A DNA stretch of 22,062 bases. Source: Chloroflexota bacterium (GTDB lineage: Bacteria > Chloroflexota > Ktedonobacteria > Ktedonobacterales > Ktedonobacteraceae). This document shows positions 1 to 21,751 of the stretch, one piece after another (the first letter of the stretch is position 1; each line of letters starts with the position of its first letter). The position numbers were made by a program, and so were the translations under genes. The stretch is taken from positions 1 to 22,062 of the forward strand of contig VBJK01000074.1 in the NCBI GenBank assembly GCA_005879655.1, in the 5' to 3' direction. The notes under the pieces are model-generated. The model did not search any database. It had not been told where the DNA came from and was given only the letters and a program-made list of their open reading frames with translations.

Positions 1-2
1 CT

Positions 3-3500: not shown

Positions 3501-3793
3501 AACTCAAGGGATTTGCGTGAGATGCAAAAGAGTGAAAAAGGAGCCAAGTAGAAGCTATATCATCCAAGCGTCGTAGACGGGGAAGGAATTTCGCCTTCCT
3601 TGCTGACCAGTCGCTACCGTGGGGCCTTGCATATCTTGCGTTCACTACGCAGGTGAGGAATTGCGCCTCACTTCACATCATGAATTGTCAAGGTTTATCA
3701 TCTTGCCAGCCTTCCTCTCACGCCTGTGAGTTTCGGCGGAACGGGTCGCACATTGAGATTGTCCATGACACGGAACACGCAGGCCGCTTCCAA
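3501..3793. other. Intergenic region with twin hairpins, possible decayed insertion-element end
   Basis: Two hairpins share almost the same core. On the minus strand, GTGAGG-CGCAATT-CCTCAC spans 3671-3653 and GGAAGG-CGAAATT-CCTTCC spans 3599-3581; both contain AGGCG[C/A]AATTCCT. They are about 70 bases apart and lie downstream of jetD, between it and the truncated PHP gene. Paired hairpins of this kind are seen at the right ends and guide-RNA regions of IS200/IS605-TnpB elements, but no transposase motif is left to prove this. They might also help terminate the operon transcript, although no clear T-run follows either stem. Confidence 0.4.
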
Positions 3794-4882
3794 CTACGCC
3801 TGCCATACGTGCTGTAGCTCATCAGGCCCCAACACTTCTTCTGGCACGCGTCTGCCCGCCTGGATAATTTTCAAGACATCTACGCGCACATCCTCCGGCA
3901 ACCATGCAGATAACGCTTCGTCGCTGGCGTCCCTTCTCCGTTCCTTTGGCTGATACTCAAAGCCCTCAGGATACCCGAACTGCTGAACTGACTGTAGCAT
4001 GGCCCGATGCAATCCCCGGGCCGGAACAACTGAGGGAAGGAGCTCGCTTTGTGCCAGTTCAGCAGCCTGCCGCGCAATCCGTAGGCCATGTCTATCCAGG
4101 TCACCCACGTACTCGATGCGCTCTATCTGGTGTTCCATAAGCGTAAAATGGAGGACAGAGCGCTCAAAACTCGCTCCGCTGCCGAAGCCAAGCCAGCCAT
4201 AGGGTGGGGACGCGTACTGCTTGAGAACCGTGGCGGCTGTTCTGAACGCGGCAGCATTCTCAAAAATGAGGGCGACAGGGGATGCTCCAATCTCCTCTAT
4301 GACTAAGGGAGGAATGTCGGGTATACAGCCAAGCAATGCCAGACTGAGTCTGCCAGATCTGAACAGGGCGCTATGCAGCAGTTCGCCCAGGCGCTTCTCG
4401 TTGCCGGTTAACTGAAGGGAACGATAGGTGAGAGGGGCAGAGCGTTGCAGCACGCCCTCTCGTAACGCCTCCTGTACCCGCTTGAGAAAGATCACTTGCT
4501 CTTGGGAGAGCATGGGCATATCCGCTATCCAGCGCAGTTGTGGCAACCAGGGATAGTCACGCCAACTCTCATCGTCGCGTACCTCATTTGGTGACGTTTT
4601 CCAGACCACGGTAGGCAGAGGTGGTTCAAGTGTGTGATCCCAACAGCGCCCTCGCACGGATGGCAGGCGAATGATGTCCTGATCTGCGGCCTCTTGAAGG
4701 GCTCGCTGTAACCATTTGCGATTCTCCGATCCTCCTGGCCGATAGGGAAACGCCTCGGCAAAGTATTTCCAGAGCACAGCAATTTTCAATTGCCTAACAG
4801 AAGTATGTGCTAGACGATGCAGAAACGTCTGCATTGATTCAGGTGGCAGCATTGGTTCTTCAAAGAGAGGAGTGGATGTCAT
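3794..4882 (-). CDS. jetD: JetD-like Toprim nuclease of a Wadjet system (DUF3322/DUF2220-type)
   Basis: In Wadjet (MksG), JetD is the Toprim nuclease that cleaves small circular DNA once the JetABC SMC motor has reeled it in. This 362-residue protein has the expected layout: an N-terminal DNA-binding-type region (about 15-185) and a C-terminal Toprim-like domain. The acidic Toprim residues are visible as IFENAAAF (E208) and YVGDLDRHGLRIA (D261, D263), and the typical ending GRRVPEEVL is at 343-351. Its ATG (4882-4880) overlaps the jetC stop as ATGA, showing translational coupling. It is the last gene of the eleven-gene operon. The nuclease motifs look intact. Thirty further in-frame codons follow the TAG stop; this is probably chance. 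The assignment rests on motifs and on gene order JetA-B-C-D. Confidence 0.82.
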   Translation of the reverse strand: MTSTPLFEEPMLPPESMQTFLHRLAHTSVRQLKIAVLWKYFAEAFPYRPGGSENRKWLQRALQEAADQDIIRLPSVRGRCWDHTLEPPLPTVVWKTSPNEVRDDESWRDYPWLPQLRWIADMPMLSQEQVIFLKRVQEALREGVLQRSAPLTYRSLQLTGNEKRLGELLHSALFRSGRLSLALLGCIPDIPPLVIEEIGASPVALIFENAAAFRTAATVLKQYASPPYGWLGFGSGASFERSVLHFTLMEHQIERIEYVGDLDRHGLRIARQAAELAQSELLPSVVPARGLHRAMLQSVQQFGYPEGFEYQPKERRRDASDEALSAWLPEDVRVDVLKIIQAGRRVPEEVLGPDELQHVWQA

Positions 4883-7800
4883 GGCTGATCCTTCTGATGG
4901 TCTTGACGATCTTGATGCTCAAGAGAGAAGTTCCGCGATTCATCATGCATCATGTGAATTGCATCAAGGCCAGTCGGCGAGGTATCGTGCATCAAAAGTG
5001 CCTCACCAGTACGGCGATTCCGCTGAGAGTTGCGCAGGCGTATGATTTTGGGGAATATTTCCAGCGCATCAAAGTCTTTGAGACCGGTGGTGTAGATGAG
5101 TTGGATATCCATCGCCTGTGCCACTTCACGCTGCAACTGTAAGAAAAGCGAGCGGGAAGCAACGCCTATGGGATTATCGAGGATCAGACAACTCGACCGT
5201 CCCGCGGGCTTCGTGCGATGCGCTACCCGCATCCGCAGCAGGGTACAGTACAGCAGAACCATGCTGGTGAGGCGTTCACCGCCACTTTCTTCTCTGGCCA
5301 ATTTACTGGGGTTCATATAATGCAGATCAGCGGGATCTGGAAAAAGAAGTTCCACCTTCATAGGCTCGGCGAGGCGGTGTACCGCTTGCTGAAGGAGCTT
5401 CACGCCAGTAGGAATCTCGCCCTCCCCTTCTACGAGAGCATTCAATAGATTCGCAATTTTGCCGACGCGTTCATCTTTCGTCACGGGCATTGAGAGGTGA
5501 ATGCGTAAAAAGGGACGGCGCTCAAACGCAGGAAGCGAGGCGGGTAGCTTTGAGTATTGGCTCGCGCTCTTGAGAAAGTCCGCGCCTGACTCTGCCAGCT
5601 CCACTAAGTGCTCAACGAGAGAATTGCGATAAGCCATACTTTTCTCGCGCTCTTCCCGGATTAAGGTTTGCCGCAAAAGCATCTCAGGCAGCAAGGTATG
5701 GGAGTGCTGCTCATAGCCTCCATTCTCCCCGTCGCTATATGCCAACAGCCGTTTTGCTAGAGAAACCTCCTTAAACTCCTTGTCAACTTCATTGAGCGCG
5801 CGCCTGATGTGCTGTGAGCTTGTTTCTGCTCGGCGGTCTAAATGCCCTTTTCCCTCCTGTATCTGTTTGAGTTGCCTCTGCAATGTTTGTAAAAGCTCGT
5901 CAATCTCCTCTTCTTTCAGTGCAGCCTGTTTTTCCTGAGCTGAGGGGGCTTCGTCCAGCTCGGCTAAATCAGGAAGATCTTCATTACGTGCTCCTAGAGC
6001 GAGCAAAGCAGCATGATTTTCCTGCATCATCTCAACCTGACGTTGTACGCGAACCAGGCTTTCAATATGGGTGGCACAGTTTTGCGCGCTCTGCTGAGCC
6101 TCCAGTTCCGTGGTGCTTTGCTTCTGAGCCACCTGCTCATTATTGGCTGCCAACCGTTCTTCTTCTTCTGCCTCCTTGATACATAACGCTTCACTCTCCA
6201 GCACATCCTCTAACTCGTTTTCATCAATGCCCTGCCCGCTCAGTCGCTTTTTGAAGCCTTGCATCTCTTGTTCGGCCTTCGCTAACTTGTCCTGTTCGCG
6301 ATCCCGCTCGTTTTCAGCGTTGACTTTCGTTACGAGTGCCTCATCTGCACGTTGATCCGCATCGTCTGGGTCTGACAGTGTAGACAAGGCATCATGCACC
6401 TCACTTTCCGTGACAGGCTTTTCCAGCTTGCGTCGAAGCTGCCGCTGTGCCTGCTCCGCCTCTTTCAGTGCCTCTTTGTGGAGGACTGTAAGCTCATTGA
6501 CACCGATCTTCTGCTCATACTGCTCTTTGAGGCGCTCATACTCATCACGAAGCACCTGAAGATCACCGGAGGCAGGAGCAGGCGACTTCCCTTCCAAGTA
6601 ACGAACCTCGCCCCGTTCGCGTTCGATAATGCTGGCTTCCTCTGCAAAGCGCTTCTCAGCGTTCGCTGTCGCATTGGCTTCATCCTCTTTTTCCTGAGCT
6701 TGAGTCCGCAAGTGTTGCGCTTGCGTCCTGCATTCCTCTGCCAGGGCGCGCTGCTCATATTCTCTCTGCTGCAAGATATCGGCATCGACGTTCAATTGGA
6801 TCTCAGATGCTTGCAGCCGTATCAGGTAGCCCTTTACAAGCTCTATCTTCTTTTGAAGCTCGCGCAGCTCCTGCTGTTTTGAGGCAATCTGCTTCTTGCA
6901 ATACTCAAGTTCTTGCTCCTGTGGCCGAAGCTTCGCCTGGGAGGATTGTTGCTGCTCCTGTGCCTCTCTCAAGAGCGCGTGATGCTCATTCCACCATGTC
7001 GTCGGATAGTGTGTGAGCGTGTGCTTGAGTCGCTGAAGCGAGCTCCTCAACTGCACCGTCTCGTGGTGTAATGTGTTTATCTGATCTTCGAGGCGTTGCC
7101 GCCGCTCCTTGCGATCAAGGAGTTCGCGGTTGCCTGCCTCCTGCTGAAAGTAGGCATCACTGGTAGGCCCAAGCGACCAGCCTCGCGCTGCTATGCCATT
7201 CTGTATCTCTCGCCTGGCGAACACGACCACGGGTGTTTCTAGGTACGGCTGCGCTGTTTGGAGTGTATGCTGTGCTCGCGGCCACTGCTCATCAGGGACG
7301 ACGACACAAAAGGCCAGTTCAGGCACACGTTGCAGCCAGCTACGCCGCTCAGTTTCACCCACACTTTCAGCCAGGTAGCGCCAGCCAGACCAGACAGTAA
7401 TGTGCTCCTTCTTCAGGTGCTCCTGTACATGTGCAACGGCCTGGAGAGGAGGAAGAAAACCGTAATCAGAGAGGTACTGAATCATGGCATCCTGCTCGGC
7501 TGCCGTGATCCGCAGCCGGGCAAGCTGTTCCTCCCATGCATGCTGCTTTTCCTCTAATAGCTCTGTCGTCCGTGACGTGAGTTGATCAACGTCGAGTTCA
7601 GGCACCTCTAAATGCTGCTGTAGTATCGTATCGGCAGTGATCTGCTGACGCTCTTGCTGTGCCGGTTTCAGTAATTTTTGTTCGTGTTTAATCTGCATGT
7701 CAAGCTTATCAAGCGTGCTTATCAAGGTGCGCTGTCTCTCCTGAAGCTCTTCCCGCTCCGATTCCAGCGTCTCAAGAATTCTTTGAAGCGTTTGCAGTTC

Positions 7801-9366
7801 TTTCTGCTGCTCGTCTTGCTGCTGCTGCCAACGATAGTGTGCATTGGTTGCACGCTCGCCAGCTTGCAGAATGCCTTGATTTTCTAATTGTTTATGAAGT
7901 TGGCGCAATGCTGAAAGTTCTTTGGCCGCTTGTTTTGCCTGTGCATCATAGCCCGCAGCCTCGACATCCTGTTTCGTTGCGCTATCACGGAACTTACCTG
8001 CTTCTGCGCGTTGTTGCCGGGCCAGATCTTCGGCATGTCGCTCTTCCGCACGCAATTTCTCAGCTTTGGCAGATAAGGTGGCGGCATAGCGGCACGCGCT
8101 CTCTTGAAGCACGAGTAACAATGGCTCATGCTCTTGTTGCTGCGCTCTCATTTGCGCCTGAATGGACTCGGCTCTGGCTCTGGCCCTGATCACTGCCCGC
8201 AGCGGAATTGCCGCCTGCCACACTATGACCTGCCGCTTTGCATATTCCACGAGATCGCTCAAAGTCGCTACACCTGTCGTGAGCTGCTGAACGCGCTTCT
8301 GGGAGGCGGCAAAACGCAGAAGGAGGGCGCGTCGCCTCTGCTGCTTCGCCGCTTCTTGTACACGAAGCAACTCCGCATGAGCCTCTTGCTCTATCTCTTC
8401 CCATGTACTTTGTTCCTGGCGCAAGTTCTCCACCCACCTGTTGACTGCTCCCGTTGCATCATCAATGCCCTCTTGGACTGCATGTATCTGCCTGTAGAGG
8501 CGCGCTCGTTCGTCCGCCACTTCACATAGCAGCGCGAGTTGACTTGTTAGCGTTTGCAGCAGAGCATATTCGGGTTCAAGCTTGTGACGAAGATCTAGGA
8601 GCAATTGGCGAAACGTGGTGATATTTTTAGCGATTTCGTGGCTGGTTGCCGTCTCTCCCATCAGATCCAGAAAGAAATCGACAAAGCTATTGTCATTCTT
8701 AAAAAGGAAAGGCTCTGCCGCTCCACCTTCGCGGCTATTCATGCGGATCTGGTATCTGAACAATTCGGGGTCTGCTCCGATGCGTTCGAGCATCTCGCGC
8801 CATTGGCCCAGCGTCTCTGTATACTCGACACTCGCCTGGGGATAGGTATGATCTAACTCACGCAATTCCTGCCGAAACGTTCCCATCACGCGCTGCTCAA
8901 GCTGCCCCTGTTTGGTGATATAGATCGGCAGACCTTCCAATGTGAGGCGAGGCTCATCCTCGATGACACGCGTCGCAAAGAACATGCGATGCAGTTTTCT
9001 GCCTTCCTGAGCAGAACCGCTGGCACGCCACTCGCAAAATGCGCCGGTCAGATAACGTTCTGGTTTGCCAGACCATAATGACCTTTGCTGCCTCTGCTCA
9101 TCCATTTGCCACTCCGCCACAAGAACACTACGATCATCTGGCTGCACATACTCGTCAATCTTGTGCATGTCTGGCATTGGCCTATCGGGACAGAGCAGCC
9201 AGAATATGAGCCGAATCAGCGTTGTTTTGCCACCACCATTGCGTAGCCAGATGGCGCTATGTGTTGCCTGTCCAGTCGTAATGTCCTCCATAGACAGAGT
9301 GAGGTCGTCCATTCTGGCTCGACGTGGGCCTATATTGCAGAAACGCAGGCGAAGTAGTTGTGGCAC
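4879..9366 (-). CDS. jetC: JetC-like SMC/MukB-type ATPase of a Wadjet system
   Basis: JetC is the SMC-like ATPase that dimerises through a hinge and extrudes DNA loops. The chosen start is GTG 9366-9364: it lies one base after the jetB stop and has GGGAGG about 7 bases upstream. A further GTG at 9423 would overlap jetB by 56 bases. The 1495-residue product has a head half with the P-loop LRNGGGKTT (residues 41-49), very long coiled coils rich in Q, E, K, R and L (about 290-1240), a compact hinge-like interruption (about 625-740, around GFLPPLQAVAHV), and a C-terminal head with the ABC signature SGGERLTS (1361-1368) and Walker B LILDNPIG (1394-1401). Two departures are clear: Leu at the first glycine position of the P-loop, and Asn where SMC proteins have the catalytic Glu after the Walker B Asp. 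Coiled-coil length is typical of MukB/JetC. Overlap with jetD couples them. Confidence 0.85.
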   Translation of the reverse strand: MPQLLRLRFCNIGPRRARMDDLTLSMEDITTGQATHSAIWLRNGGGKTTLIRLIFWLLCPDRPMPDMHKIDEYVQPDDRSVLVAEWQMDEQRQQRSLWSGKPERYLTGAFCEWRASGSAQEGRKLHRMFFATRVIEDEPRLTLEGLPIYITKQGQLEQRVMGTFRQELRELDHTYPQASVEYTETLGQWREMLERIGADPELFRYQIRMNSREGGAAEPFLFKNDNSFVDFFLDLMGETATSHEIAKNITTFRQLLLDLRHKLEPEYALLQTLTSQLALLCEVADERARLYRQIHAVQEGIDDATGAVNRWVENLRQEQSTWEEIEQEAHAELLRVQEAAKQQRRRALLLRFAASQKRVQQLTTGVATLSDLVEYAKRQVIVWQAAIPLRAVIRARARAESIQAQMRAQQQEHEPLLLVLQESACRYAATLSAKAEKLRAEERHAEDLARQQRAEAGKFRDSATKQDVEAAGYDAQAKQAAKELSALRQLHKQLENQGILQAGERATNAHYRWQQQQDEQQKELQTLQRILETLESEREELQERQRTLISTLDKLDMQIKHEQKLLKPAQQERQQITADTILQQHLEVPELDVDQLTSRTTELLEEKQHAWEEQLARLRITAAEQDAMIQYLSDYGFLPPLQAVAHVQEHLKKEHITVWSGWRYLAESVGETERRSWLQRVPELAFCVVVPDEQWPRAQHTLQTAQPYLETPVVVFARREIQNGIAARGWSLGPTSDAYFQQEAGNRELLDRKERRQRLEDQINTLHHETVQLRSSLQRLKHTLTHYPTTWWNEHHALLREAQEQQQSSQAKLRPQEQELEYCKKQIASKQQELRELQKKIELVKGYLIRLQASEIQLNVDADILQQREYEQRALAEECRTQAQHLRTQAQEKEDEANATANAEKRFAEEASIIERERGEVRYLEGKSPAPASGDLQVLRDEYERLKEQYEQKIGVNELTVLHKEALKEAEQAQRQLRRKLEKPVTESEVHDALSTLSDPDDADQRADEALVTKVNAENERDREQDKLAKAEQEMQGFKKRLSGQGIDENELEDVLESEALCIKEAEEEERLAANNEQVAQKQSTTELEAQQSAQNCATHIESLVRVQRQVEMMQENHAALLALGARNEDLPDLAELDEAPSAQEKQAALKEEEIDELLQTLQRQLKQIQEGKGHLDRRAETSSQHIRRALNEVDKEFKEVSLAKRLLAYSDGENGGYEQHSHTLLPEMLLRQTLIREEREKSMAYRNSLVEHLVELAESGADFLKSASQYSKLPASLPAFERRPFLRIHLSMPVTKDERVGKIANLLNALVEGEGEIPTGVKLLQQAVHRLAEPMKVELLFPDPADLHYMNPSKLAREESGGERLTSMVLLYCTLLRMRVAHRTKPAGRSSCLILDNPIGVASRSLFLQLQREVAQAMDIQLIYTTGLKDFDALEIFPKIIRLRNSQRNRRTGEALLMHDTSPTGLDAIHMMHDESRNFSLEHQDRQDHQKDQP

Positions 9367-9367
9367 C

Positions 9368-10105
9368 TTATACCTCCCTTGCCGCGATGAGCGTACGTAC
9401 GACACTGGCCAGACGCGCAACACTTTCTTCTTGAGTCATGACCTGGTATTTCCAGGTAGGTTGATATGCCTGGTTGCCATTGCGCGAAACAATGCTCACA
9501 CATCCGTGCTGTTGCAGCGTTCCGAAGGCACGGCGAATCATCTGCAGCGTTGTGCTAGCACTCGCCCGCCCATCGCTGGTGGTCTTCGTCGCGACACGAT
9601 TCTGATAGGCCCGCCAGGCTTCATCTAGCCCGGCAGTCACCTCTTGCACCGTTGGGTCTGGCTGCGTGCGTGCTGCCTCTTCCAGATGCTCACACAGCAT
9701 GCGTAACGTTCGCTCTACCTCCTCAACGGTCACAGGCGGGCGCGCTAGCAGTGGGTCTTCCTCCAGGTCCTGCGCCCGTGGATAGAATGTGGCAAGAATG
9801 GCGACCAGGATGAAGCCATCAATGAGGCGGTCCTCAGCACTGCCAGAGCGACGGTAGTCCTCGGCGGTCATGGCAAAGACAGAATCGTCGTCAGGTGTGA
9901 GCACAACGCCTCTCTGCCCTGCCGCTGTCACCACGACGCCTAACCCGCGACAAATCGCCTGCACACACTCACGAAACGGTACCTGGTCGCGATAGCGGTC
10001 TACCAAGTGTTGATACTCCTCTTCCGTCGCAGGGCGTGCATGTGGCCGGAGTGCCCATTGAATCAGGCGGCCTGCATCAATCAAGGTTTGCGTGTCAGAA
10101 AGCAT
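9368..10105 (-). CDS. jetB: JetB-like (MukE/DUF4194-type) subunit of a Wadjet system
   Basis: The 245-residue soluble protein sits between the JetA-like and JetC genes, the position of JetB/MukE, which binds the kleisin and loads DNA onto the SMC head. ATG 10105 was chosen because AGGAG lies 7 bases upstream and overlap with jetA is then only 11 bases; an ATG at 10162 has no such site. The sequence fits a double winged-helix accessory protein: an N-terminal helical part (DTQTLIDAGRLIQWAL), a central segment with LIDGFILVAILATFYPRAQDLEEDP typical in style of MukE/DUF4194 proteins, and a C-terminal winged-helix-like part in which a helix (TLQMIRRAFGTLQQHGCVSI) precedes a beta hairpin (NGNQAYQPTWKYQVM). 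No catalytic motif is expected or seen. Identity rests on size, fold impression and gene order rather than a diagnostic motif. Confidence 0.68.
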   Translation of the reverse strand: MLSDTQTLIDAGRLIQWALRPHARPATEEEYQHLVDRYRDQVPFRECVQAICRGLGVVVTAAGQRGVVLTPDDDSVFAMTAEDYRRSGSAEDRLIDGFILVAILATFYPRAQDLEEDPLLARPPVTVEEVERTLRMLCEHLEEAARTQPDPTVQEVTAGLDEAWRAYQNRVATKTTSDGRASASTTLQMIRRAFGTLQQHGCVSIVSRNGNQAYQPTWKYQVMTQEESVARLASVVRTLIAAREV

Positions 10106-11615
10106 GTTGATGCTCCTTTCTGTTCTGCTTTGGGAAGAGCACGACATCATCGCCAGCAACATTGCTCAGCCAGAATTGCTGTGTATCCGTTTTCAGCACG
10201 TAGACAGGAAGTTTCTCCGGCTCTGGCGAGTCTTGCTCATCAAAGTAATCCATCACCAAAAACACCAGTACCTCAAGGACTGCAACAGACTCGCCCGCAT
10301 CCTGTGCGGCCAGCACCACTTCGGAGAGCCGTTTTGGCTGCTCCAAAGCGGCGAGATAGTGCTCTGCACGCTCAACCATCTCTACTGTAAAGCGAGTCTG
10401 ATCGTAGTTCGTGTCAATCAGCTCTCGTGGTTGGATCGGTATGGAGTCTACCTGTGCCTCACGGCGAGGTTGCAACAGATAGTGAAGATAACGTGCGAGT
10501 GAGAACATGCCCGGAGCGCTGGCGGGGAAGCAAGCGCTGACGATGGTGTCCAATGTCTGTACGACATGTGCACGTGGCAGGCTGAGAAGAGGGGCTAAGA
10601 GATCGTTTTGCGGGTGGGGAAAGAGCAGCAGAGGGCGCAAGGTAAAAATCTGTCGCTCTTGCTCCTCGAAAAAGATGCGTGGGGCCTCCATCAGCCGCCG
10701 CTCAAGCATCAGATGTTGTTGACGACAGGTTTCAATGAGCTCGATAATCTCTGCCAATTGATAAGCTTGCCGACTTCCAGGCTCAAGCTGCTCACGCTGC
10801 TCGCGGGCCGTCGCCACAATGCTATGCTCCACTGTGCAGCGGGTTCTTACATGCAGCAGCGCATCATCGAGCATGTGACGCATCTCCTCCCTCCAATCCA
10901 CACTGTGCAGGTCGCGGCGGGAGTCTTGTAAGCGGTGCTCCATGTGCTCGCGTAAGCGCATGGAATGCTGCAAGGCCCATTGAGCCGAGCCTCGCGCCTC
11001 CTGAATACGCCCCCGCTTGAGCTGCCACTCGATAATAGCTTCCGCTGCCACCTGGGCATCCTCCAGATTGACAGTTAAGGCGTTGAGCAAGAGATTAGCG
11101 CATTCGTTGGAGAGGCGTAACACGGTGCGCCCATCGACATGATGTCGCTCTTCAAGCAGCCGAACTGAAAGTGTACGCTTGACAGCCTCGCCCTGCTCGA
11201 ATGTGGTGTAGTCAAGCTTGAAAGGTCCTCGTCGCTCCTCCTCGTTGTACAATGTCGCCAGTACTCGTTCTGCCATGCGCACCGCTCGCGTTCGCTCTGG
11301 CTCTATGCCTGCCCCTCGATCCATGGCCTCAAGCAGTGGCAGCAGTTCCTCTATTGCCTGGCGATGCTCAATATCCTGCCCAAGCCCCGTGTGCGTGATG
11401 ATGAGATCAAACAGCTTGAGCGCTAGGGAGAGCGAGGCATAGTGCTGAAATTCGGGCGAGCGATGCTCATCACGAGATTGCAAGCTGAGTAAGCGGTCTG
11501 CGTGGAGCAAGACGCGCAATTGCTGCGTTAATTGCGCGTCCCACAGCACATTGGCAGGCTCGCTAAAGAACTCGGTATCGAATGTATTGGAAGTTGTATC
11601 GTCTTGCTCGTTCAT
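10095..11615 (-). CDS. jetA: JetA-like (MukF-type kleisin) subunit of a Wadjet system
   Basis: JetA/MukF is the kleisin that bridges the two JetC heads. This 506-residue protein is acidic, almost wholly helical and soluble, and lies directly before the JetB and JetC genes. An N-terminal region (about 20-110) looks like winged-helix plus helices (LTQQLRVLLHADRLLSL), the middle (about 120-330) is helical with a segment resembling the helix-rich core of MukF/JetA (ECANLLLNALTVNLEDAQVA, then LREHMEHRLQDSRRD), and the C-terminal part is rich in L, P and acidic residues with a small winged-helix-like end (YVLKTDTQQFWLSNV). No enzyme motif is present. ATG 11615 has GAGGAG 6 bases upstream, inside the end of the sbcC-like gene, which ends only 3 bases away. 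It overlaps jetB by 11 bases. Assignment is mostly from position, size and fold, so a lineage-specific kleisin is possible. Confidence 0.68.
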   Translation of the reverse strand: MNEQDDTTSNTFDTEFFSEPANVLWDAQLTQQLRVLLHADRLLSLQSRDEHRSPEFQHYASLSLALKLFDLIITHTGLGQDIEHRQAIEELLPLLEAMDRGAGIEPERTRAVRMAERVLATLYNEEERRGPFKLDYTTFEQGEAVKRTLSVRLLEERHHVDGRTVLRLSNECANLLLNALTVNLEDAQVAAEAIIEWQLKRGRIQEARGSAQWALQHSMRLREHMEHRLQDSRRDLHSVDWREEMRHMLDDALLHVRTRCTVEHSIVATAREQREQLEPGSRQAYQLAEIIELIETCRQQHLMLERRLMEAPRIFFEEQERQIFTLRPLLLFPHPQNDLLAPLLSLPRAHVVQTLDTIVSACFPASAPGMFSLARYLHYLLQPRREAQVDSIPIQPRELIDTNYDQTRFTVEMVERAEHYLAALEQPKRLSEVVLAAQDAGESVAVLEVLVFLVMDYFDEQDSPEPEKLPVYVLKTDTQQFWLSNVAGDDVVLFPKQNRKEHQHAF

Positions 11616-11618
11616 AGA

Positions 11619-14600: not shown

Positions 14601-14765
14601 ACAACGGGCACGATGATAGAGAGCAAATGTCATAGCATCAAAAACAGCAGATTTCCCTACGCTATTTGGGCCAGAAAGCGCCCATATCGATGCACCGACA
14701 AAATTGATGATTTGCTTCTTCTCATAGCTCAAGAAGCCCTCAAGCGTTACCTGTAGCGGAATCAT
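11619..14765 (-). CDS. sbcC: SbcC/Rad50-like ATPase with zinc hook
   Basis: SbcC (Rad50) is the ATPase that, with SbcD (Mre11), recognises DNA ends and hairpins and controls their cleavage. The 1048-residue protein shows the whole set of landmarks: N-terminal P-loop SGPNSVGKS (31-39), Q-loop SCLLLQGKSEQLL near residue 145, long coiled coils, a CxxC zinc hook (PVCDLCGQEI, about 498-507), then the signature SGSQKFRIA (954-962), Walker B VIIDEGFGGLD (about 983-993, with catalytic Glu987) and an H-loop VSHQEEF (His1019). All are intact, so an active enzyme is expected. Length is typical of SbcC. ATG 14765 has AAGGAGAGAGG upstream. It lies 16 bases after the SbcD-like gene, the usual partner order, and 3 bases before jetA. 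The second SMC-like ATPase of the operon is JetC, which has a globular hinge instead of a zinc hook. Confidence 0.95.
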   Translation of the reverse strand: MIPLQVTLEGFLSYEKKQIINFVGASIWALSGPNSVGKSAVFDAMTFALYHRARCGPKDLIHHRADRLIVTFDFMVDNTIYRIKRIHPRKGRSTREVFIVDSADGSNLDSAPTKRMTNTDSDDELRDWVKRTIGMDYAAFTSSCLLLQGKSEQLLDVDPRIRRDILAELMDLSRYEKLRVAAEEQRKAFKSAVETLERQLLAPNVRVVRDEELEEARTLLHDAEEAWEDAQERVERFSGYLEQARHWEADRAELQKQHMELQSVQGLVDREAEIASGFSELQELDTVLSPLKQIVEERIALLALRVRLDELQCQARRIEEDVRIAEIKKKAELQVVTDLEATLNDIEQKSKQLLGRLTVLIPLVSRLEAIEQLQIKREAVDKHIATLPVDIAQQMTQAEQRLRELEDMERMLPWLSEFAEVRGVLAVTLGREQAASEQMVTLRVRYDELQKSRTAQEAACTIVRGDERRLDDEKRDSNRRLRDAQNRLEKFLGVATKPVCDLCGQEITGEHARQERMRLQQLIEECRHEVATVTQQHQHAVDLKHTKECELQELDDQIGAVRDSHGQAKLERQTVCEQAEEHEKRLRRAFRAMSESHQEQISSAMPEERAAWLATVYPSQSDLETISQEVKGKAYQAHEVKRLHDDYQTWQGLHQQRVVFAQQISEQEQDVDLEAARNARTEKNSIEKQQTTLAASSEEQHHKLKQARKAAQEAETEREKLTTRAQRCQSEIGDTTARKEERERIQREREANLPMQWRSQANTLDETGVTVLEQRRTDLTCYRSLHEQLTSARERIERYQKRIDELNVQISAYPADAKRPVQEVEGELLRRKEAHRRASAERDKAKDRLGDLEGMRERRQALEQQKLEDERMQHLYAILTKHLGKTGLQLFLLNRAEHAIVEFANQTLSGLSHGRMRLEWRPENEAQVQTDKALDVLVRDREISNCTVPIGSVSGSQKFRIAVSLAMGIGRYMSRDGRHLESVIIDEGFGGLDKTGRDDMIQELRTLGEHVARIILVSHQEEFAYAFPNRYRFKLVDGSSRVTLMDEE

Positions 14766-14781
14766 GTTCCTCTCTCCTTAC

Positions 14782-15996
14782 CTACTCCATCGTTGCCAGC
14801 AGCGTGCGTGCCAGCTTGAGTATCTCATCCCGTTGTGGGTCATCGGCTAGGTTTTCCTGAAGGTAGTGTTCAACGGTCGAGGCCATATCATCAGGAGCAG
14901 TGACGTCAAAGGCACTGGCGGTAATGCTTGCTCCCTCGGCCTCAATCTGCGCTTCGTAATAATTGGGGAAAATACTTTCTAGTTCGTTGGTCAGGCTGTC
15001 AAGGTTGTGCTCGCCTGGCTTATAGACCAGCCGATATGAGACGAGGGCGTCTGCATGGTCGGGATAGCGCTCGCGTAAGCCCTGCATGTCAGTGTCTGGG
15101 TGAAGAATCTCGATGCGGTAGATGGGAGTTGCGTTTAGGGGCAGGCAGACGGGATCGCCGCGCCTTCCATCTGGACCGATATCAACTAGGACAACGCTCT
15201 TATCATCTTTCCATTCACCATAATTCATGCGCTCGATGCTGCCAGCATAGCGCACATGCGGCGTGTTGCGCAAGACTTCGCCCTGCTCATGAATATGCCC
15301 GTACGCAACATAATCCAGGTACGCCGGAATCTCCCCCTGGTCGATGACCACATCGTCGCTTTCCGAGACGTGATGACGTGTATAGACCTGTGTGCCGCGC
15401 ACATGAATATGGCTGACCAGCACGCTGCGTATGTGCTTTTTAATGACGGTATTCAGTATCCGGTCCCTCGTCTCTTCAAATTTGCGATGCAACAATTCAT
15501 TGCGCTTTGCCAGGCTCTCATAGGGTGTGTTATCCTCACTGAGGTAGCGGGCCGGTGTGGGATAGGGCAGTAACACAAACTGCACACTTTGCCCTACCGG
15601 ATCGGCCAGTTCTAGCACCGTTGGCCGTGTGGCTAGGTAGAGACGGCCAGGCGGACGCGGGCCAGTGGTGCTGGCATTAATGGGCACAGCCAGGTCTAGC
15701 ATATTACGCATGAAGTTGAAGACGTGCTCATTGTCGTGATTGCCGCTGATCGCTACAATGGTGCCGCCCTTGAGCAGAAACGGCTTGAAGATGCGTTGGA
15801 TATCGCTCACCGCTTCGTTCAATTCCTCCATCCGTTGCCCCTGGCTGAAGAGGTCGCCCGCAACGATCATTAGATTAACGCGCTCTTCTTCCAGGTAGCC
15901 CGCAATCTCTTCCAGCCGCTTCACCAGATGAGGACGGCGCGAGACGCGCTTGAGCCGCTCGTGTAAGTGCCAGTCGGCAGTATGCAGTATTCGCAT
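14782..15996 (-). CDS. sbcD: SbcD/Mre11-like DNA exonuclease (metallophosphoesterase)
   Basis: This 404-residue protein is the nuclease partner of the SbcC-like ATPase. Calcineurin-like phosphoesterase motifs are complete and in order: ILHTADWHLHERL (D8, H10), IVAGDLF (D48), SGNHDNE (N86, H87), LVSHIHVRG (H196, H198) and AYGHIHEQG (H234, H236). Its capping-domain region follows (about 285-365), and the C-terminus is helical, as in SbcD/Mre11. SbcD proteins cleave DNA ends and hairpins with Mn2+ and act with SbcC on the nucleoid. Start ATG 15996 follows the herA-like gene by 24 bases, with a weak purine-rich site upstream (AAAGAGAG). The catalytic set is intact, so activity is expected. Being next to HerA and NurA, it recalls the archaeal mre11-rad50-herA-nurA cluster more than a housekeeping bacterial sbcDC pair. 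Confidence 0.95.
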   Translation of the reverse strand: MRILHTADWHLHERLKRVSRRPHLVKRLEEIAGYLEEERVNLMIVAGDLFSQGQRMEELNEAVSDIQRIFKPFLLKGGTIVAISGNHDNEHVFNFMRNMLDLAVPINASTTGPRPPGRLYLATRPTVLELADPVGQSVQFVLLPYPTPARYLSEDNTPYESLAKRNELLHRKFEETRDRILNTVIKKHIRSVLVSHIHVRGTQVYTRHHVSESDDVVIDQGEIPAYLDYVAYGHIHEQGEVLRNTPHVRYAGSIERMNYGEWKDDKSVVLVDIGPDGRRGDPVCLPLNATPIYRIEILHPDTDMQGLRERYPDHADALVSYRLVYKPGEHNLDSLTNELESIFPNYYEAQIEAEGASITASAFDVTAPDDMASTVEHYLQENLADDPQRDEILKLARTLLATME

Positions 15997-16020
15997 CGTG
16001 TTCGCTCTCTTTCGCTTGCT

Positions 16021-17871
16021 CTAATATGTCGCTATCTCTTCGTCCGGTATTGTCGATGTCGGAGATGCGGCTCTATCATCAGATGGAGCTGCTTCCTTTG
16101 GATTCATGGCCCACATGGGGAAGGGCACTCGAATATGCATGGGCTCGCGGAAGTTATCCTGAATGACCAGCTTCTCTCCTGGAGGCAGCACTGTGGCTTT
16201 GCTCTTCGCGCTCGCGCTCAAAAAGCGCCACGCGGTTGCGTCCAGTTCAAGTGTGCCGGTGCGACCGAGCACGCGTAATGCCACATTTTCAATCACTTTT
16301 TCCGATACCTTCGAGGCTTGCTGCTGCGCGCCAAGCAGGATAATGCCCTGTGAACGCATTTCGGCGGCCACATTCTCGATCAGCTTGGTGATTGCATCGG
16401 TAGCCCCCCGTGGCGCAAAGCGATTCAACTCATCAAGCGCGACGAGATAAATTAACCCCGGCTGTGCTTTGGCTCCCGTACGTGCCTCTACGAGTTGGCG
16501 CAGAATAGTGGCCACGACAAAGCGCTGTATCTCTGACTTCCCAGCCAGCGTTGACAGGTCGATCACAAGCGGGTCAATGGTATCGCTGCGTGTCACCTGC
16601 AACGGCTTGCCCACCTGGTCGTCGACACGCAGCACGCCTTTGCACTCATAGACAAGCCTCAACAAACGGCGATACAGCTTCTTCCAGGTGGATGTGTGAT
16701 GGTTGCGCCATCTCCCTTTATCTTCTTGCCTCTGCTTATCCACCCACACTAAGAGTTCGCTGAACGTTTGCGGTATCTCTTTCCCCTCGCGCAGCGAGCG
16801 TGTGACGGCACTGCCATCGTTTTTGGTGCTCTCGGTGGTGAGCCAGCTTTCTATATCCATCACGAGCGCGCTAAAATTACTATCGTTCGCATCGACCTCG
16901 GCAAACAAGTAAGAGAAGAGGCCCTGGGCAATGATGTCACTCAAGCTCCAACTATAGGGCTTCACCTCACCTGTTCGCCCGGTTGGAACCGCGATGTCAC
17001 TCCCAGGCATCTGCGGCGCATAAAATGCAGCGTTCTCGAACGGTTTGGGGTCCGCAATGCCCAACGCTTGCCAGTCCGCCAAGTGCTTCTGTTCGTTATA
17101 GAGCGTGCTCTTGCGGTCAATGTAAAACAGATCGAGTCCCTTGACGTTCAGAATAATCGGCACAATGCGTAAACGGTTCTTATCGGAAGGGCGACTCCTA
17201 GCCTCTAGCCTCGCTTTGTGGAGCAGGAGCCAGATGACGAAGAGCAGAAAGCTCGATTTGGTGCCGCGTCCCGCCGAACCATTGACGTTCATATGCCCGC
17301 CGTTGGTCCCGAGCAGGTAATCCAGGTCGATGCAGCCGGGACCAGCAATCTGGTTAGCCCCATTCTTGATAAGCCCTATATCCAGGCTGTTTGTGATGTC
17401 CTCTGCCCCGTAAGCCGTACGCGCATCGTCAGCAGAGGCAAGGTAGACAGGGCTACGCTCTTGTGGCGGCGTGAAGACCTCTGAGCGCAGAATGCTGGCC
17501 GAGGCATAGGTAAAGCCGTCATTCTCGAAAGGCGGCTGATAATTGAGGTCGCCGTCAGCTTCATCTATTTCAGCCCCCATCGAACGCTTGCGGCTCTGTC
17601 GATACACCTCACTCACAATGGCATAGTAGGTATATGGAACGCCTGCGAGCCTGCTCAGACAGGTAATAAGCTGCGTCGTTTCAACCAGGGTATCAGGCGG
17701 AAGCCAGAAGAAGAAGTTTGTGCTGGTGGCCTCCTTCTGTGGCGGAGCACCGACACGCCCAATGCACAGCGAGCCGTTGATCGTTGAAGAGGTCGTGCCT
17801 CCATTGCCGTTCAGAGATACAGATTCGTCATCTATAGGGACAGAGGTAGCATCCTGATAAGAATCATCCAT
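16021..17871 (-). CDS. herA: HerA-like hexameric DNA translocase ATPase with variant P-loop
   Basis: HerA is a bidirectional DNA translocase that drives the NurA nuclease in end resection. The 616-residue protein starts at ATG 17871, which has AAGGAG 9 bases upstream and lies 17 bases after the NurA-like stop. Residues about 37-165 look like the beta-rich HAS-barrel domain (CIGRVGAPP, then GVPYTYYAIVSEVYRQS). The ATPase core follows: phosphate loop NGSAGRGTKSSF (197-208), Walker B IYLVALDELNRFAP (474-487, D480 and E481), a sensor-like ILLGAQQQASKV (511-522) and an arginine-finger-like RVLGRTGTLEL (533-543). The P-loop has an extra residue before the lysine (GxxGxGTKS instead of GxxGxGKS). The tail (about 592-616) is acidic and disordered. 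It is neither FtsK nor TraG: no membrane segment is present. Pairing with NurA directly upstream supports HerA. Confidence 0.85.
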   Translation of the reverse strand: MDDSYQDATSVPIDDESVSLNGNGGTTSSTINGSLCIGRVGAPPQKEATSTNFFFWLPPDTLVETTQLITCLSRLAGVPYTYYAIVSEVYRQSRKRSMGAEIDEADGDLNYQPPFENDGFTYASASILRSEVFTPPQERSPVYLASADDARTAYGAEDITNSLDIGLIKNGANQIAGPGCIDLDYLLGTNGGHMNVNGSAGRGTKSSFLLFVIWLLLHKARLEARSRPSDKNRLRIVPIILNVKGLDLFYIDRKSTLYNEQKHLADWQALGIADPKPFENAAFYAPQMPGSDIAVPTGRTGEVKPYSWSLSDIIAQGLFSYLFAEVDANDSNFSALVMDIESWLTTESTKNDGSAVTRSLREGKEIPQTFSELLVWVDKQRQEDKGRWRNHHTSTWKKLYRRLLRLVYECKGVLRVDDQVGKPLQVTRSDTIDPLVIDLSTLAGKSEIQRFVVATILRQLVEARTGAKAQPGLIYLVALDELNRFAPRGATDAITKLIENVAAEMRSQGIILLGAQQQASKVSEKVIENVALRVLGRTGTLELDATAWRFLSASAKSKATVLPPGEKLVIQDNFREPMHIRVPFPMWAMNPKEAAPSDDRAASPTSTIPDEEIATY

Positions 17872-17888
17872 TGGGAAAATCTCCTTGC

Positions 17889-18935
17889 TCACAACTGGGT
17901 GAGATTGTAGAAACGAGAGACGATTTGGTCGCCACCAGTCATGGTTGCCCCCAAAATCTCCTCGGCTCGCTGAATCGGATAGAGCGAGACTGAGGCCCGC
18001 TCGTAACTTTTGTCTTTGCAGCGATACTCGCACACCATGCGAGATAGAGCGTCAATATAGGTCGAATCTTGCTGTAGTTGCAGGCGAAAGAATTTCTCTG
18101 GTATCTCTAACCTGACGATGCCCCAATCTGGCATAGCGCTGGTGGTGCTATCCAGGCGCAAGTACCAGGAAACGACCGTGATATGCTCCTGTGGGAGCAG
18201 AAATGCAGGCGTACGTTGACCAAATTGCAGATTGTAGTAGATACGCCACCCTTCATCGTGCAGGTAGTTGCGGTGGTGTCCCTTAATCATGCCCACGACT
18301 GGCGTGTTCGCTTCGTCGAAACCGCCCCGGCGCGGGTCCAGGCGTCCATCGACCAGGATGGGCACCTGTCCTGCTCGTACCAGAGCTTGTTTCTCTAACC
18401 GAATCATCTCATCCATCGAGCGGTTCTGTGTTGCCTTGCGCATCTCCTGAAAGTCGTAGGTCAGGCCCTCTTTTGGCTTTTGACAGGGCAGCAGACGAAA
18501 ACCCTCGGCTTGCAGAGCAGCTGCAAAGCTCTCTACCTCATCCCAGGGAAACGGCTCTACGACCATCGTCACCACGCGCTCAACAATGTGCCACTCGCGC
18601 TGCAAACGGCGATTTGCATTGCACATCAGCACCGCACCGATTTCGGAAAGCCGTACCGGTATGGGAAAGCCCTCCACTGTCTGAAGCCAGGCCACTGTGC
18701 GTCCAACGTCCTTGCCATCTATGAAAAGCTTTGGGTTATGAGCCTCCGTGGCAGAGAGGGTAACATTACAGGTATCAATCGGCACCCATTCTCCGACTTT
18801 CTTTTCATAGTCCATCTTAGGTTGTTCCTTCTTTGGCACCTCTCCGATTTCTATACTGTCATTAAGCAACAGTGGACGTATCGCATCATCGCGCATTCTG
18901 TGCGCGCCATTACTTCGTAAAAATTCAAGCCCCAT
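17889..18935 (-). CDS. nurA: NurA-like 5'-3' nuclease
   Basis: NurA is a nuclease that works only with HerA. This 348-residue protein starts at ATG 18935, with AGGAG about 10 bases upstream; a TTG at 18962 lacks a site. NurA landmarks are visible: a first acidic motif PKLFIDGKDVGRTV (69-81), an E-rich helix before the second (RSMDEMIRLEKQALV), ILVDGRLDPRRGGF (193-206), a lysine motif VVGMIKGHHRNYL (213-225), the beta pair VVSWYLRL and WGIVRLEIPE (254-280), and the terminal motif SLYPIQRAEEIL (317-328), which in NurA carries the conserved C-terminal tyrosine-proline and acidic positions. Gene order directly before the HerA-like gene, 17 bases apart, is the diagnostic partner arrangement. The sequence is divergent from what I remember of archaeal NurA, so the call is from motifs plus context. 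Aspartates 73 and 196 are the best catalytic candidates. Confidence 0.78.
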   Translation of the reverse strand: MGLEFLRSNGAHRMRDDAIRPLLLNDSIEIGEVPKKEQPKMDYEKKVGEWVPIDTCNVTLSATEAHNPKLFIDGKDVGRTVAWLQTVEGFPIPVRLSEIGAVLMCNANRRLQREWHIVERVVTMVVEPFPWDEVESFAAALQAEGFRLLPCQKPKEGLTYDFQEMRKATQNRSMDEMIRLEKQALVRAGQVPILVDGRLDPRRGGFDEANTPVVGMIKGHHRNYLHDEGWRIYYNLQFGQRTPAFLLPQEHITVVSWYLRLDSTTSAMPDWGIVRLEIPEKFFRLQLQQDSTYIDALSRMVCEYRCKDKSYERASVSLYPIQRAEEILGATMTGGDQIVSRFYNLTQL

Positions 18936-18958
18936 ACAAACACTTCTCCTCACTACTC

Positions 18959-19660
18959 TCAATTCAAATGTGCCGCCACTAGCGGCAACAAGTGCAGATC
19001 TCGTAATCGTCGGCGCATGGCTGTCCCGCTCACCAGCATCTCGGTCGCGAGTCGCCAGATCAAGTCATCGCCGCGGAAATCGGGCGCGTAACGTGTGAAG
19101 AGATACTGTACAGCCTCAGCAGGCATGAGCAGCTCGGCAGCAAACTGATTAGCCTCTTTTTCCATCTGGTTATAGGAAGGAAGATGAAGATGCGGTGCAT
19201 GGACGACTCGCCCCTCAGGTAGATCATCTGCGTTCTCGTCGGCGGAGAATAAGGCCAGCCCCTCTGTAATCTCAAGCGGTTCGTACGAATCGCTCAGTCG
19301 CTGCTCACGAAGAAGCGGATAAAAATGGAGCACGTAGTGGCCAAACTCATGCGCAACCGAGAAGCGACGACGCACTAAGAGATCGTCGCGCTCGACGAAA
19401 ATATATCCATTGCTGCTATCGACATAGATATACCCCGCCAGCGGCTCCTGGTTCGCGCTGCCTATCGGCTCAAAAATGGCCCCACGCCGCATGAGAAAGT
19501 GTGATGCGACCTCACTCGTTAAGCCCACCAGTTCTATGCAGGTCAGGTTATAGCCCCCTAGCAGCTCATTGAGCACAACTACTCGCTCCTGCTGCGTTGG
19601 CGGTGTCATCGCACAGATGCAATACAGTTCCGCAATTGCATCTGTAATCGTTTGTGACAT
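18959..19660 (-). CDS. ImmA/IrrE-type HExxH metallopeptidase
   Basis: This 233-residue protein carries the ImmA/IrrE zinc protease signature: RFSVAHEFGHYVLHFYP (99-115, zinc-binding HEFGH at 104-108) and the downstream MEKEANQFAAELLMP (166-180), which supplies the third ligand. Proteins of this family cut repressors or anti-repressors: ImmA cleaves the ICEBs1 repressor ImmR, and IrrE/PprI cuts DdrO after DNA damage in Deinococcus. The N-terminal 60 residues are helical and could be an adaptor; there is no helix-turn-helix in the protein itself. ATG 19660 follows the upstream gene by 3 bases and the nurA-like gene comes 23 bases later. Neighbouring sigma factor and unknown regulator are plausible cleavage targets. 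This would allow induction of the nuclease genes after damage or invasion, but no target site is shown by the sequence. Confidence 0.9.
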   Translation of the reverse strand: MSQTITDAIAELYCICAMTPPTQQERVVVLNELLGGYNLTCIELVGLTSEVASHFLMRRGAIFEPIGSANQEPLAGYIYVDSSNGYIFVERDDLLVRRRFSVAHEFGHYVLHFYPLLREQRLSDSYEPLEITEGLALFSADENADDLPEGRVVHAPHLHLPSYNQMEKEANQFAAELLMPAEAVQYLFTRYAPDFRGDDLIWRLATEMLVSGTAMRRRLRDLHLLPLVAAHLN

Positions 19661-19663
19661 AGC

Positions 19664-20308
19664 TTATCCCTCCTCCTCTTCTGTCGGAAGCTTTTGTTCT
19701 GTCTCTATTGCCTCTTGCATCGGTGGTACTTTCTTCTGATAGAGCTGTTCATGCTGGCGTCGTGTTGCCGCAAGCTGCGCCATACCCTGCTGTCTGCCCG
19801 ACGTAAGAAAGAGCGCGGTCTGGCTAAAGAGCTTTTGTAGCTGCTTGCTCGCCTGCACGCCAAGCTGTGCGAAGAGCGTACGTACTCCGTGTAGGCCCAA
19901 CTGCTCTGGTAGCGCCTGATTCGATTGGCGAAGCCGTTGCACAACGCTCAGCAGTTCCCGCTTGACGGAGCCACGGATCGCCTCATCAGCTTGCATCCGT
20001 GCGACCACATCGCTCACTGTCAAAGGTGGCATCTCTTCAAGCGTAAGCGGCGTTTCCAGACCGGAGGGCAAAAGCTGGAGCAAAAGCTGCCGCACCTGTT
20101 CGACTTCATGCTCTCGCTGCTCGTATTCCTCCTCGGCAGCGCAAGCGGCGTGTACCTCCCAGATCAGCGTTTCCAGGTCCGCGTCCTGCTCGGCTTGGGC
20201 GAGGACTTGAGACATTACCTCGAAATCATTCCGCTCAAAAGCATCCATATAGCGGTGTAATGCCCTCTCGCGTGAAAGATGCTGCTCTCGTGCGTTCTGC
20301 TCATTCAT
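19664..20308 (-). CDS. Helical protein of unknown function between sigma factor and ImmA/IrrE gene (candidate regulator)
   Basis: This 214-residue soluble protein overlaps the end of the sigma factor gene by 8 bases if translation begins at ATG 20308; GTG 20317 is an alternative with a close purine stretch. Its N-terminal part (13-60) is an acidic helical hairpin (YMDAFERNDFEVMSQVL), then comes a Glu-rich stretch, and its C-terminal part has the pattern LPEQLGLHGVRTLFAQLGV and GRQQGMAQLAATRRQHE (about 133-187), which I recall as a recurring style in Ktedonobacteria next to ImmA-type peptidases. It has no membrane segment, so it is not a classic membrane anti-sigma factor. Being coupled to sigma and to a peptidase, it is a good candidate for a soluble anti-sigma or for the peptidase's substrate. 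No function can be assigned from sequence alone. Confidence 0.6.
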   Translation of the reverse strand: MNEQNAREQHLSRERALHRYMDAFERNDFEVMSQVLAQAEQDADLETLIWEVHAACAAEEEYEQREHEVEQVRQLLLQLLPSGLETPLTLEEMPPLTVSDVVARMQADEAIRGSVKRELLSVVQRLRQSNQALPEQLGLHGVRTLFAQLGVQASKQLQKLFSQTALFLTSGRQQGMAQLAATRRQHEQLYQKKVPPMQEAIETEQKLPTEEEEG

Positions 20309-20948
20309 TGCGTACACTTCCCTCTCTCTCCAACGCTACACGTAGCCGTGCTCTGGCTCTGCATAGCCGTACCTGGGCTGCCGTATAAGCACATCCCAAC
20401 CGCTGAGCCAACTCCTCACCATCTAATCCCTCGATAATGGAGAGGTGCAAAACCTCTCGGTCGCTTGCTGAAACAAGGGAAAGCAGATATTCCGCCTGCG
20501 CTCTGGCCTCAATCTGCTGCTCCATCCCATCACTAATCAGCGTGCTGGTTAGGGTGAGTGAAGCGAGTACAACCTCTGCTTCCTGCCGGTCATGTTGTAG
20601 AGCACTGAGGGGAATTTCTGGCTTATGCTTTGCCTGCTCGGCTCTCTTCTTGCTAATGATATGTGTTGCAATACCGAGCAACCACGCGCGTGGCGGGCGA
20701 GCAGGATCGAAGGAATGTGCTGTCTTCGTAGCCTCAATATAGACTTCGTTGAGTAGCTCTAGCGCCACCTCTTGCACCTCTTCAGGCTTTGAAGCCAGTC
20801 CCGCTTTACGCACACGACTCCGAAAAATGCCAATGATAGCGATTGCATCTTGCTCAATATACTGCAACAGCAATCTGGCAATATCGGGCGGTTTTGTGTC
20901 TATGCGATCCTCAGCTTGCTGTTGTTGCATTGAGGTTCTCTCCTCCAT
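20301..20948 (-). CDS. ECF-like sigma-70 factor, first gene of the operon
   Basis: This 215-residue protein has the two-domain layout of an extracytoplasmic-function sigma factor. Region 2 (about 30-107) includes EVQEVALELLNEVYIEA and RPPRAWLLGIATHIISKKR, the usual core-binding and promoter -10 recognition part. Region 4 (about 150-205) reads SASDREVLHLSIIEGLDGEELAQRL then AQVRLCRARARLRVAL, a helix-turn-helix for the -35 element. Start choice is open: ATG 20948 has GAGG 5 bases upstream and ATG 20930 has a stronger GGAGGAG 9 bases upstream. As the first gene of the operon it may drive its own transcription. The linker between regions 2 and 4 is short, so regions 1 and 3 are absent, as expected for this group. 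I cannot tell which ECF group it belongs to. Confidence 0.88.
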   Translation of the reverse strand: MEERTSMQQQQAEDRIDTKPPDIARLLLQYIEQDAIAIIGIFRSRVRKAGLASKPEEVQEVALELLNEVYIEATKTAHSFDPARPPRAWLLGIATHIISKKRAEQAKHKPEIPLSALQHDRQEAEVVLASLTLTSTLISDGMEQQIEARAQAEYLLSLVSASDREVLHLSIIEGLDGEELAQRLGCAYTAAQVRLCRARARLRVALEREGSVRNE

Positions 20949-21271
20949 ATATACCTCTTCATCAAAGTAGCGACAAGTTTTTGCCGTTCACTTATATATT
21001 GGATTTCCAACTCCAAAATATTACACTAGAACAAATATTCATATACTTCTTCATTGCTATCCAGCAACAGGTTTTACAAACAATCAGAGGTAGCACAGTG
21101 TTGATGGATAGTAAATGGCATAATTATAAAACGATACAGCAACGATTATATAACATATATTTCCTGTAGTGCGTGCTGTATTCCTCTGAATCCGGGTATG
21201 GACTATTACCAGCAGCATAGCATGTGCTTCCCCTGTATCTCAGTATTTCATCGCATTGTAGAGGGGTACAA
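20949..21271 (-). promoter_or_regulatory. Probable control region of the operon
   Basis: This AT-rich stretch upstream of the sigma gene has no coding frame. On the minus strand a TATAAT hexamer lies at 21128-21123, about 175 bases before the start codon, but no good -35 hexamer sits at the right distance. If the sigma factor is autoregulated, the -35/-10 pair would not match the housekeeping consensus, so absence of a consensus pair is not informative. No operator-like palindrome stood out. Confidence 0.35.
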
Positions 21272-21568: not shown

Positions 21569-21687
21569 ATGCTCGTAGGTCGGCCCAGTCCGCTAGAGAA
21601 AGAGCAACGGACTGGGGAACTGCCCAAGGGTCCGCACGGTCTGCGCATACAAACGGGTCAAGCTCACTGGAAAAACCTGGCACGCTC

Positions 21688-21751
21688 TCTGACTTTTTCC
21701 GAAGTTACCGTGGACGATTTTCCCAGTTGCTTCTGACTTTTTCCGAAGTTA
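21688..21751. repeat. Two perfect 20-base direct repeats
   Basis: TCTGACTTTTTCCGAAGTTA occurs at 21688-21707 and again at 21732-21751, with 24 bases between. Only two copies are present, so this is not a CRISPR array. The position just upstream of a transposase relic suggests element-end or nested-insertion sequence. Confidence 0.8.

Follow-up and report, generated by a model that had tools for sequence, protein, structure and literature searches.

The 22,062-nucleotide (nt) stretch of a Ktedonobacterial contig analyzed here (Chloroflexota bacterium, contig VBJK01000074.1; hereafter the window) carries eleven adjacent genes on the minus strand, from 3794 to 20948, which are separated by gaps of at most 24 nt or overlap briefly and likely form one operon. 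Their order is sigma, g10, ImmA, NurA, HerA, SbcD, SbcC, JetA, JetB, JetC and JetD. We propose, with a probability of roughly 0.55, that they encode a single system against small circular invading DNA, in which Wadjet (JetABCD) would make the cut and the remaining nucleases would break down the ends so exposed, under a switch formed by a sigma factor, an anti-sigma factor and an ImmA peptidase. The proposal builds on gene content and order, on catalytic motifs, on a recurring seven-gene block and on a resection core found before three types of Wadjet; the mechanism outlined further below is inferred. The genes are the following:

20301..20948, minus strand: sigma-70 family sigma factor, extracytoplasmic function (ECF)-like, gene 1; Pfam Sigma70_r4_2 at 1.4e-7 (above cut-off), r2 at 1.2e-4 (below cut-off)
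19664..20317, minus strand: g10, predicted soluble anti-sigma factor; sigma-linked N-terminal domain, AlphaFold model
18959..19660, minus strand: ImmA/IrrE (M78, CapP-like) metallopeptidase; Pfam 1.3e-14, PADLOC capP 1.2e-22, HEFGH at residue 104
17889..18962, minus strand: NurA nuclease, with the NurA fold; start probably near 18935
16021..18033, minus strand: HerA ATPase/translocase; profile against Deinococcus HerA 7f6d 6.8e-149; start probably near 17871
14782..15996, minus strand: SbcD/Mre11 nuclease; TIGR00619 97.9 bits (cut-off 77.65), phosphoesterase motifs present
11619..14765, minus strand: SbcC/Rad50 ATPase; TIGR00618 2e-46 (below the curated cut-off), Walker A, CxxC zinc hook, signature, Walker B
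10095..11615, minus strand: JetA, Wadjet type III; PADLOC JetA3 4.2e-84
9368..10162, minus strand: JetB, Wadjet type III; PADLOC JetB3 4.1e-5 (weak, position fits), Pfam DUF6063 below cut-off
4879..9423, minus strand: JetC, Wadjet type III ATPase of the structural maintenance of chromosomes (SMC) family; PADLOC JetC3 4.5e-152
3794..4882, minus strand: JetD, Wadjet type III Toprim-type nuclease; PADLOC JetD3 2.1e-65, EN and DLD/DID motifs

The gene identities given by the initial annotation, and its account of eleven tightly packed same-strand genes, were borne out by Pfam, PADLOC and TIGRFAM-type models together with catalytic motifs. The resection set is complete, with NurA, HerA, SbcD/Mre11 and SbcC/Rad50 all present together, and HerA falls within its family; the best 11 of 477 HerA homologs measure 612–619 amino acids (aa). 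The Wadjet genes match type III in their JetA-B-C-D order, in the PADLOC models and in their ATPase and Toprim motifs: JetC has the NGGGK Walker A, SGG signature and LDNP Walker B common to all seven aligned JetC3 proteins (the window and six others), and the Toprim residues of JetD are present when aligned with five other JetD3 proteins. The array differs from known type III Wadjet in being preceded by the four resection genes and by the sigma/anti-sigma/ImmA switch. In the window, no Rfam family reached its gathering score and no tRNA was found.

Related loci provide the evidence that the two halves belong together. HerA proteins form two clades, a window type (W) and an actinobacterial/other type (A). 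We surveyed 115 loci, drawn from the best 80 of at least 581 loci in a genome scan with a HerA alignment, to which plasmid matches, three viral-collection loci and matches in 27 of 400 Chloroflexota genomes were added. Four repeat the genome of another locus (L178, L179, L180 and L204) and their removal leaves 23 W and 88 A loci; L023 had been excluded beforehand as the same as L006, the two being an identical 21.8-kb module stretch on different contigs of the Mastigocoleus assembly. Informative loci, in which sbcC is present with at least 1.5 kb beyond it, number 15 W and 52 A (eight W loci dropped, namely L007, L009, L012, L015, L017, L021, L086 and L196, and 36 A loci). Searched with 25 query sequences, which may miss diverged Wadjets, three of the 15 informative W loci have one. 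In Thermogemmatispora (L008/L204), NurA-HerA-SbcD-SbcC is followed on the same strand, 44 nt after sbcC, by a complete four-gene type I Wadjet; in another Chloroflexota genome (L011/L179), a complete four-gene type II Wadjet follows the same four genes, also on the same strand, after 163 nt; the window holds type III. The sigma/anti-sigma/ImmA head precedes the core in the type I and type III loci. Because the same four proteins directly precede the other two Wadjet types in two related genomes, the Wadjet and resection halves probably work together. A fusion peculiar to one lineage had been considered and was dropped once type I queries revealed the Thermogemmatispora locus.

It is conceivable, if clearly less probable, that the halves are mere neighbors in a defense island: a damage-induced repair/resection operon running from sigma to SbcC, behind which a Wadjet landed, the two sharing a promoter at most and acting on different target molecules. 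This would account for the 12 of 15 informative W loci that show no Wadjet in the available sequence and for blocks that adjoin CRISPR and Hma genes, as defense-island clustering predicts. Type I JetC, present in four of 47 Ktedonobacteria genomes, is likewise found at three of its four places (one a fragment) in genomes without such a HerA. Mere neighborhood fits less well with the finding that Wadjets of all three types sit behind sbcC at one position and in one orientation, with the 3-nt junction between sbcC and jetA in the window, or with the HerA tree. On that tree the Wadjet label needs four changes (gains or losses), and the well-supported (starred) branches force four, the fourth being the Streptomyces linear plasmid described below; three of the seven Wadjet-labelled rows are labelled only via equal contig size, and unlabelled database rows may hide Wadjet. 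The tree has 44 selected rows (20 W, 12 A and 12 database proteins), with long branches for L022 and L195. With type I JetC in four of 47 Ktedonobacteria genomes and a single suitable slot among several thousand genes, adjacency by chance can be roughly estimated at about 1 in 100,000 for each locus, a figure that would be higher with defense-island clustering.

The resection genes and the switch also travel together elsewhere. The order sigma-g10-ImmA-NurA-HerA-SbcD-SbcC is kept in Chlorohelix and Aulosira plasmids, in Mastigocoleus, Thermogemmatispora, Zavarzinella, Fimbriiglobus and Gemmata, and in Calothrix as far as HerA, where the contig ends. Three phyla, Chloroflexota, Cyanobacteria and Planctomycetota, have this seven-gene block, and a fourth, Acidobacteriota, has it with a NurA-HerA fusion (L014, an Acidobacteria bin, where a single 967-aa frame at 2247–5150 has the NurA domain first); a sigma gene heads the block in all four. 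Chance co-orientation of the genes was ruled out by the seven-gene order in three phyla and the fusion form in the fourth. The block is rare: among 386 Cyanobacteria genomes a single one had g10 at E 1e-6, as did a single one among 392 from Planctomycetota, and window-type HerA was found in 1 of 47 Ktedonobacteria genomes. Since it is sporadic in four phyla and also sits on plasmids, we infer horizontal spread. A viral origin was rejected: in the viral collection, the JetA and telomere-resolvase alignments had no relatives, the HerA alignment had three distant ones and the single HerA sequence had none. Other defense genes stand no more than 5 kb from three further blocks, with HmaC about 5 kb upstream of the block in L001, Cas3 about 2 kb behind sbcC in L014 (11141–13918), and type I CRISPR Cas3 and Cas8b 0.4 kb behind sbcC in the Gemmata locus L018 (12534–16993), where a Hhe-like protein also matched. 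PADLOC was run on 20 neighboring proteins, seven of which are the Wadjet genes of L008 and L011; five of the other 13 matched and eight did not.

The complete type III form has a narrower distribution. Among 37 JetA relatives and the best 120 of the 477 HerA relatives, each cluster being represented by its longest contig, metagenome contigs of identical size carry both in three cases (89,601, 34,521 and 19,265 bp; 85–92% identity). The eleven-gene form thus likely recurs in the lineage of the window, on the assumption that equal size means the same contig; the full combination with type III was found only in the window and these three contigs, linked solely by equal contig size. HerA rows at 83–89% identity (contigs of 51,487, 25,452 and 21,431 bp) and JetA rows at 90–94% (176,861, 23,075 and 18,176 bp) have no equal-size partner among the matches listed, which carries little weight either way, and no equal contig size was seen below 75% (HerA) or 70% (JetA) among those matches. 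A fourth equal size, 8,632 bp, links HerA (64%) and resolvase (49%) relatives and may be chance. JetA3 was found in three of 400 Chloroflexota genomes, with no module genes in the 14–20 kb around each. Other type III loci had no NurA, HerA, SbcD, SbcC or switch genes by sequence search (L119, L120, L121, L138 and L139) and no core or switch genes by annotation of 8-kb flanks (L140 and L141).

At the head of the operon, g10 has no Pfam family at E 0.1. Its AlphaFold model (predicted local distance difference test, pLDDT, 78) consists of N-terminal and C-terminal helical domains joined by a low-confidence linker at residues 84–93, and a predicted template modelling score (pTM) of 0.42 leaves the mutual placement of the two domains unsure. 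A g10 profile matched at 21 places, which are spread over 14 of 47 Ktedonobacteria genomes and include the Thermogemmatispora module; 17 of the 20 places outside the module have a same-strand sigma gene upstream, from overlapping to 162 nt away, and three do not, whereas none of 13 size-matched control stretches taken from these genomes had a sigma match. Because its N-terminal domain recurs in such sigma-linked proteins, we read g10 as likely an anti-sigma factor. In four relatives examined by eye a transmembrane-looking stretch follows the common domain, and in g10 a soluble helical domain would have taken the place of this membrane part. The Ktedonobacterial family of sigma-linked proteins with this domain (L094–L113) may represent an undescribed anti-sigma domain. 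With a CapP-like peptidase encoded by the next gene, cleavage of g10 by ImmA is a natural prediction by analogy. As in CapP-CapH and PprI-DdrO, an M78 HEXXH peptidase (best PADLOC match capP) stands beside a presumed regulator, ahead of defense genes, but the partner here looks like an anti-sigma factor beside a sigma factor and not a helix-turn-helix (HTH) repressor: g10 matches no Pfam family and shares its domain with sigma-linked proteins. A diverged HTH is possible, the structure search being without a match. ImmA itself had no match among PDB sequences at 0.01.

Upstream of the operon lies one candidate control element:

21021..21035, minus strand: 15-nt stretch, candidate promoter piece (weak lead); identical upstream of the Thermogemmatispora sigma gene

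A promoter motif was set aside, as its pattern had been drawn post hoc from three cyanobacterial loci; it is exact there, good in L014 and weak elsewhere.

Several results weigh against a single machine. Shuffled sequences reached the window's score for the promoter motif in 16% of cases with the first pattern and in 28% with the second, and the g10 fold had no PDB match at 0.001, a structure without known match. L011, the type II locus, shows no sigma, g10 or ImmA in about 8.8 kb upstream, and the switch is therefore not a constant partner. Twelve informative W loci show no Wadjet, so the module does not need one to work; the halves can be separated, and blocks running from sigma to SbcC mostly occur without Wadjet. 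The contrast between clades is weak: one of the 52 informative A loci has a Wadjet, which lies on a linear plasmid of Streptomyces, belongs to type II, is divergently oriented and has an ImmA gene on its side; the Fisher value is 0.033, or 0.11 without the window. The stronger argument for an association is that three Wadjet types occupy the same slot and that the tree forces four label changes. Against it, one Wadjet may have displaced another at a single site instead of each being gained separately. The initial annotation had claimed one machine, and had named as counter-evidence a combination found in this genome only, with the halves usually apart. The claim is partly supported: it gains from the core preceding Wadjets I, II and III in three Chloroflexota lineages and from the tree, but some of the counter-evidence is there, the full type III set having been found in a single close lineage and most informative W loci showing no Wadjet.

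Outside the operon, and 1.2 kb from it, is a gene of a different kind:

1..2577, plus strand: ResT/TelK telomere-resolvase-family gene; Pfam PF16684 3.7e-19

Its family profile also matches the solved protelomerase 4e10 (2e-14). It suggests, without proof, that the window contig comes from a linear replicon, and it invites another explanation, which we consider improbable: the operon would be a competition device of such a replicon, with Wadjet removing circular rivals, SbcCD eliminating rivals whose ends are broken or are unprotected hairpins, and the resolvase-family protein shielding the replicon's own ends. An excerpt of PMC12624138 reports that TelN shields hairpin telomeres from SbcCD. 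To judge by identical size, the 34,521-bp contig carries relatives of all three proteins (resolvase, JetA and HerA), and six of the nine plasmid records checked among 12 with resolvase relatives are marked linear. JetA3 on plasmid records points the same way, three of four being linear (Rhodococcus pseudokoreensis and two Streptomyces, L138, L139 and L140) and one circular (Polaromonas, L141), so that linear plasmids may favor Wadjet, even if actinobacterial plasmids are often linear anyway. The competition device is harder to reconcile with the state of the window gene, whose two tandem ResT/TelK domains may not be intact: the first is cut by the contig end, and the second looks degenerate by eye, without the arginines of the protelomerase pattern that we take to be the catalytic set. 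Its relatives, several of which in Ktedonobacteria likewise have two tandem domains, place a frame change near 1905–1960 (real or from assembly). Resolvase relatives also occur on Ktedonobacteria contigs of 6.1 and 8.9 Mb, one Leptolyngbya plasmid carrying such a relative is recorded as linear in one strain and as circular in another, and the type I version of L008 lies on a 6-Mb contig.

A broader variant, which we also hold to be doubtful, would combine both ideas. A hairpin-ended linear replicon would wield Wadjet against circles, and SbcCD with HerA-NurA against opened circles and unshielded hairpins, its resolvase shielding its own ends as TelN does; single-stranded DNA (ssDNA) from the attack would feed the peptidase/anti-sigma/sigma alarm, and a portable resection-and-alarm cassette would have captured Wadjets I, II and III separately. 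As separate observations, the 72.7-kb linear plasmid record of Streptomyces dangxiongensis (L209) starts with an ImmA gene, after which comes a type II Wadjet whose annotation is fragmented; a minus-strand open reading frame at 3066–3500 of the window resembles a PHP-type phosphoesterase fragment (Pfam PHP_C only 0.058); and apparent transposase remnants without a Pfam match lie at 21272–21751, a region that also contains both copies (21688 and 21732) of a perfect 20-nt direct repeat.

Returning to the single cutting-and-degrading system, we hypothesize the following course of events. DNA damage, probably in the form of ssDNA, would activate the ImmA/CapP-like peptidase; ssDNA stimulates proteolysis by PprI and CapP, according to an excerpt of PMC10904395. 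The peptidase would cleave g10, likely in the flexible linker between its domains, and free the sigma factor, which would transcribe its own operon. JetABC would then extrude a circular molecule and JetD cut it, after which SbcCD would open and trim the ends and HerA-NurA would resect them processively, destroying the invader. Resection would yield more ssDNA and keep the switch on, a positive feedback.

Each enzyme family is known. According to an excerpt of a 2023 review (PMC10586767), type I Wadjet cuts circular DNA and spares linear DNA, most work concerns type I, and types II and III remain to be characterized. The genes for archaeal HerA, NurA, Rad50 and Mre11 are linked (excerpt of PMC2288612). 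Compared with that linkage and with Deinococcus HerA-NurA, the module described here is sporadic, sometimes on plasmids or near defense genes, and is extended in front by the sigma/anti-sigma/ImmA head and behind, in three Chloroflexota lineages, by Wadjet. The window system has SbcCD and Wadjet in addition to what is found in TdpAB, a HerA-NurA-like pair; its neighbor shares the PF16684 domain with the TelN/ResT telomere resolvases, with the tandem arrangement and degenerate-looking second domain as differences. In line with the initial annotation, which knew of no description of the full combination, none of the open-licence PMC papers listed joined Wadjet with this set, and none mentioned Wadjet together with NurA, although a description under other names could be missed. 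What we did not find described is the assembly itself, an ImmA switch with an anti-sigma factor as partner, and a resection core preceding three Wadjet types.

We know of no account of what becomes of DNA after Wadjet has opened a circle, or of what switches Wadjet on. The gene arrangements point to a testable answer: the same end-resection core precedes all three Wadjet types, and with types I and III the switch genes precede that core. If the switch works as proposed, it would be a new ImmA-type control of immunity, by cleavage of an anti-sigma factor instead of a repressor. Taken together, and if true, this would be a system that first cuts circles and then shreds them, in which ssDNA provides positive feedback and DNA damage operates the sigma switch.

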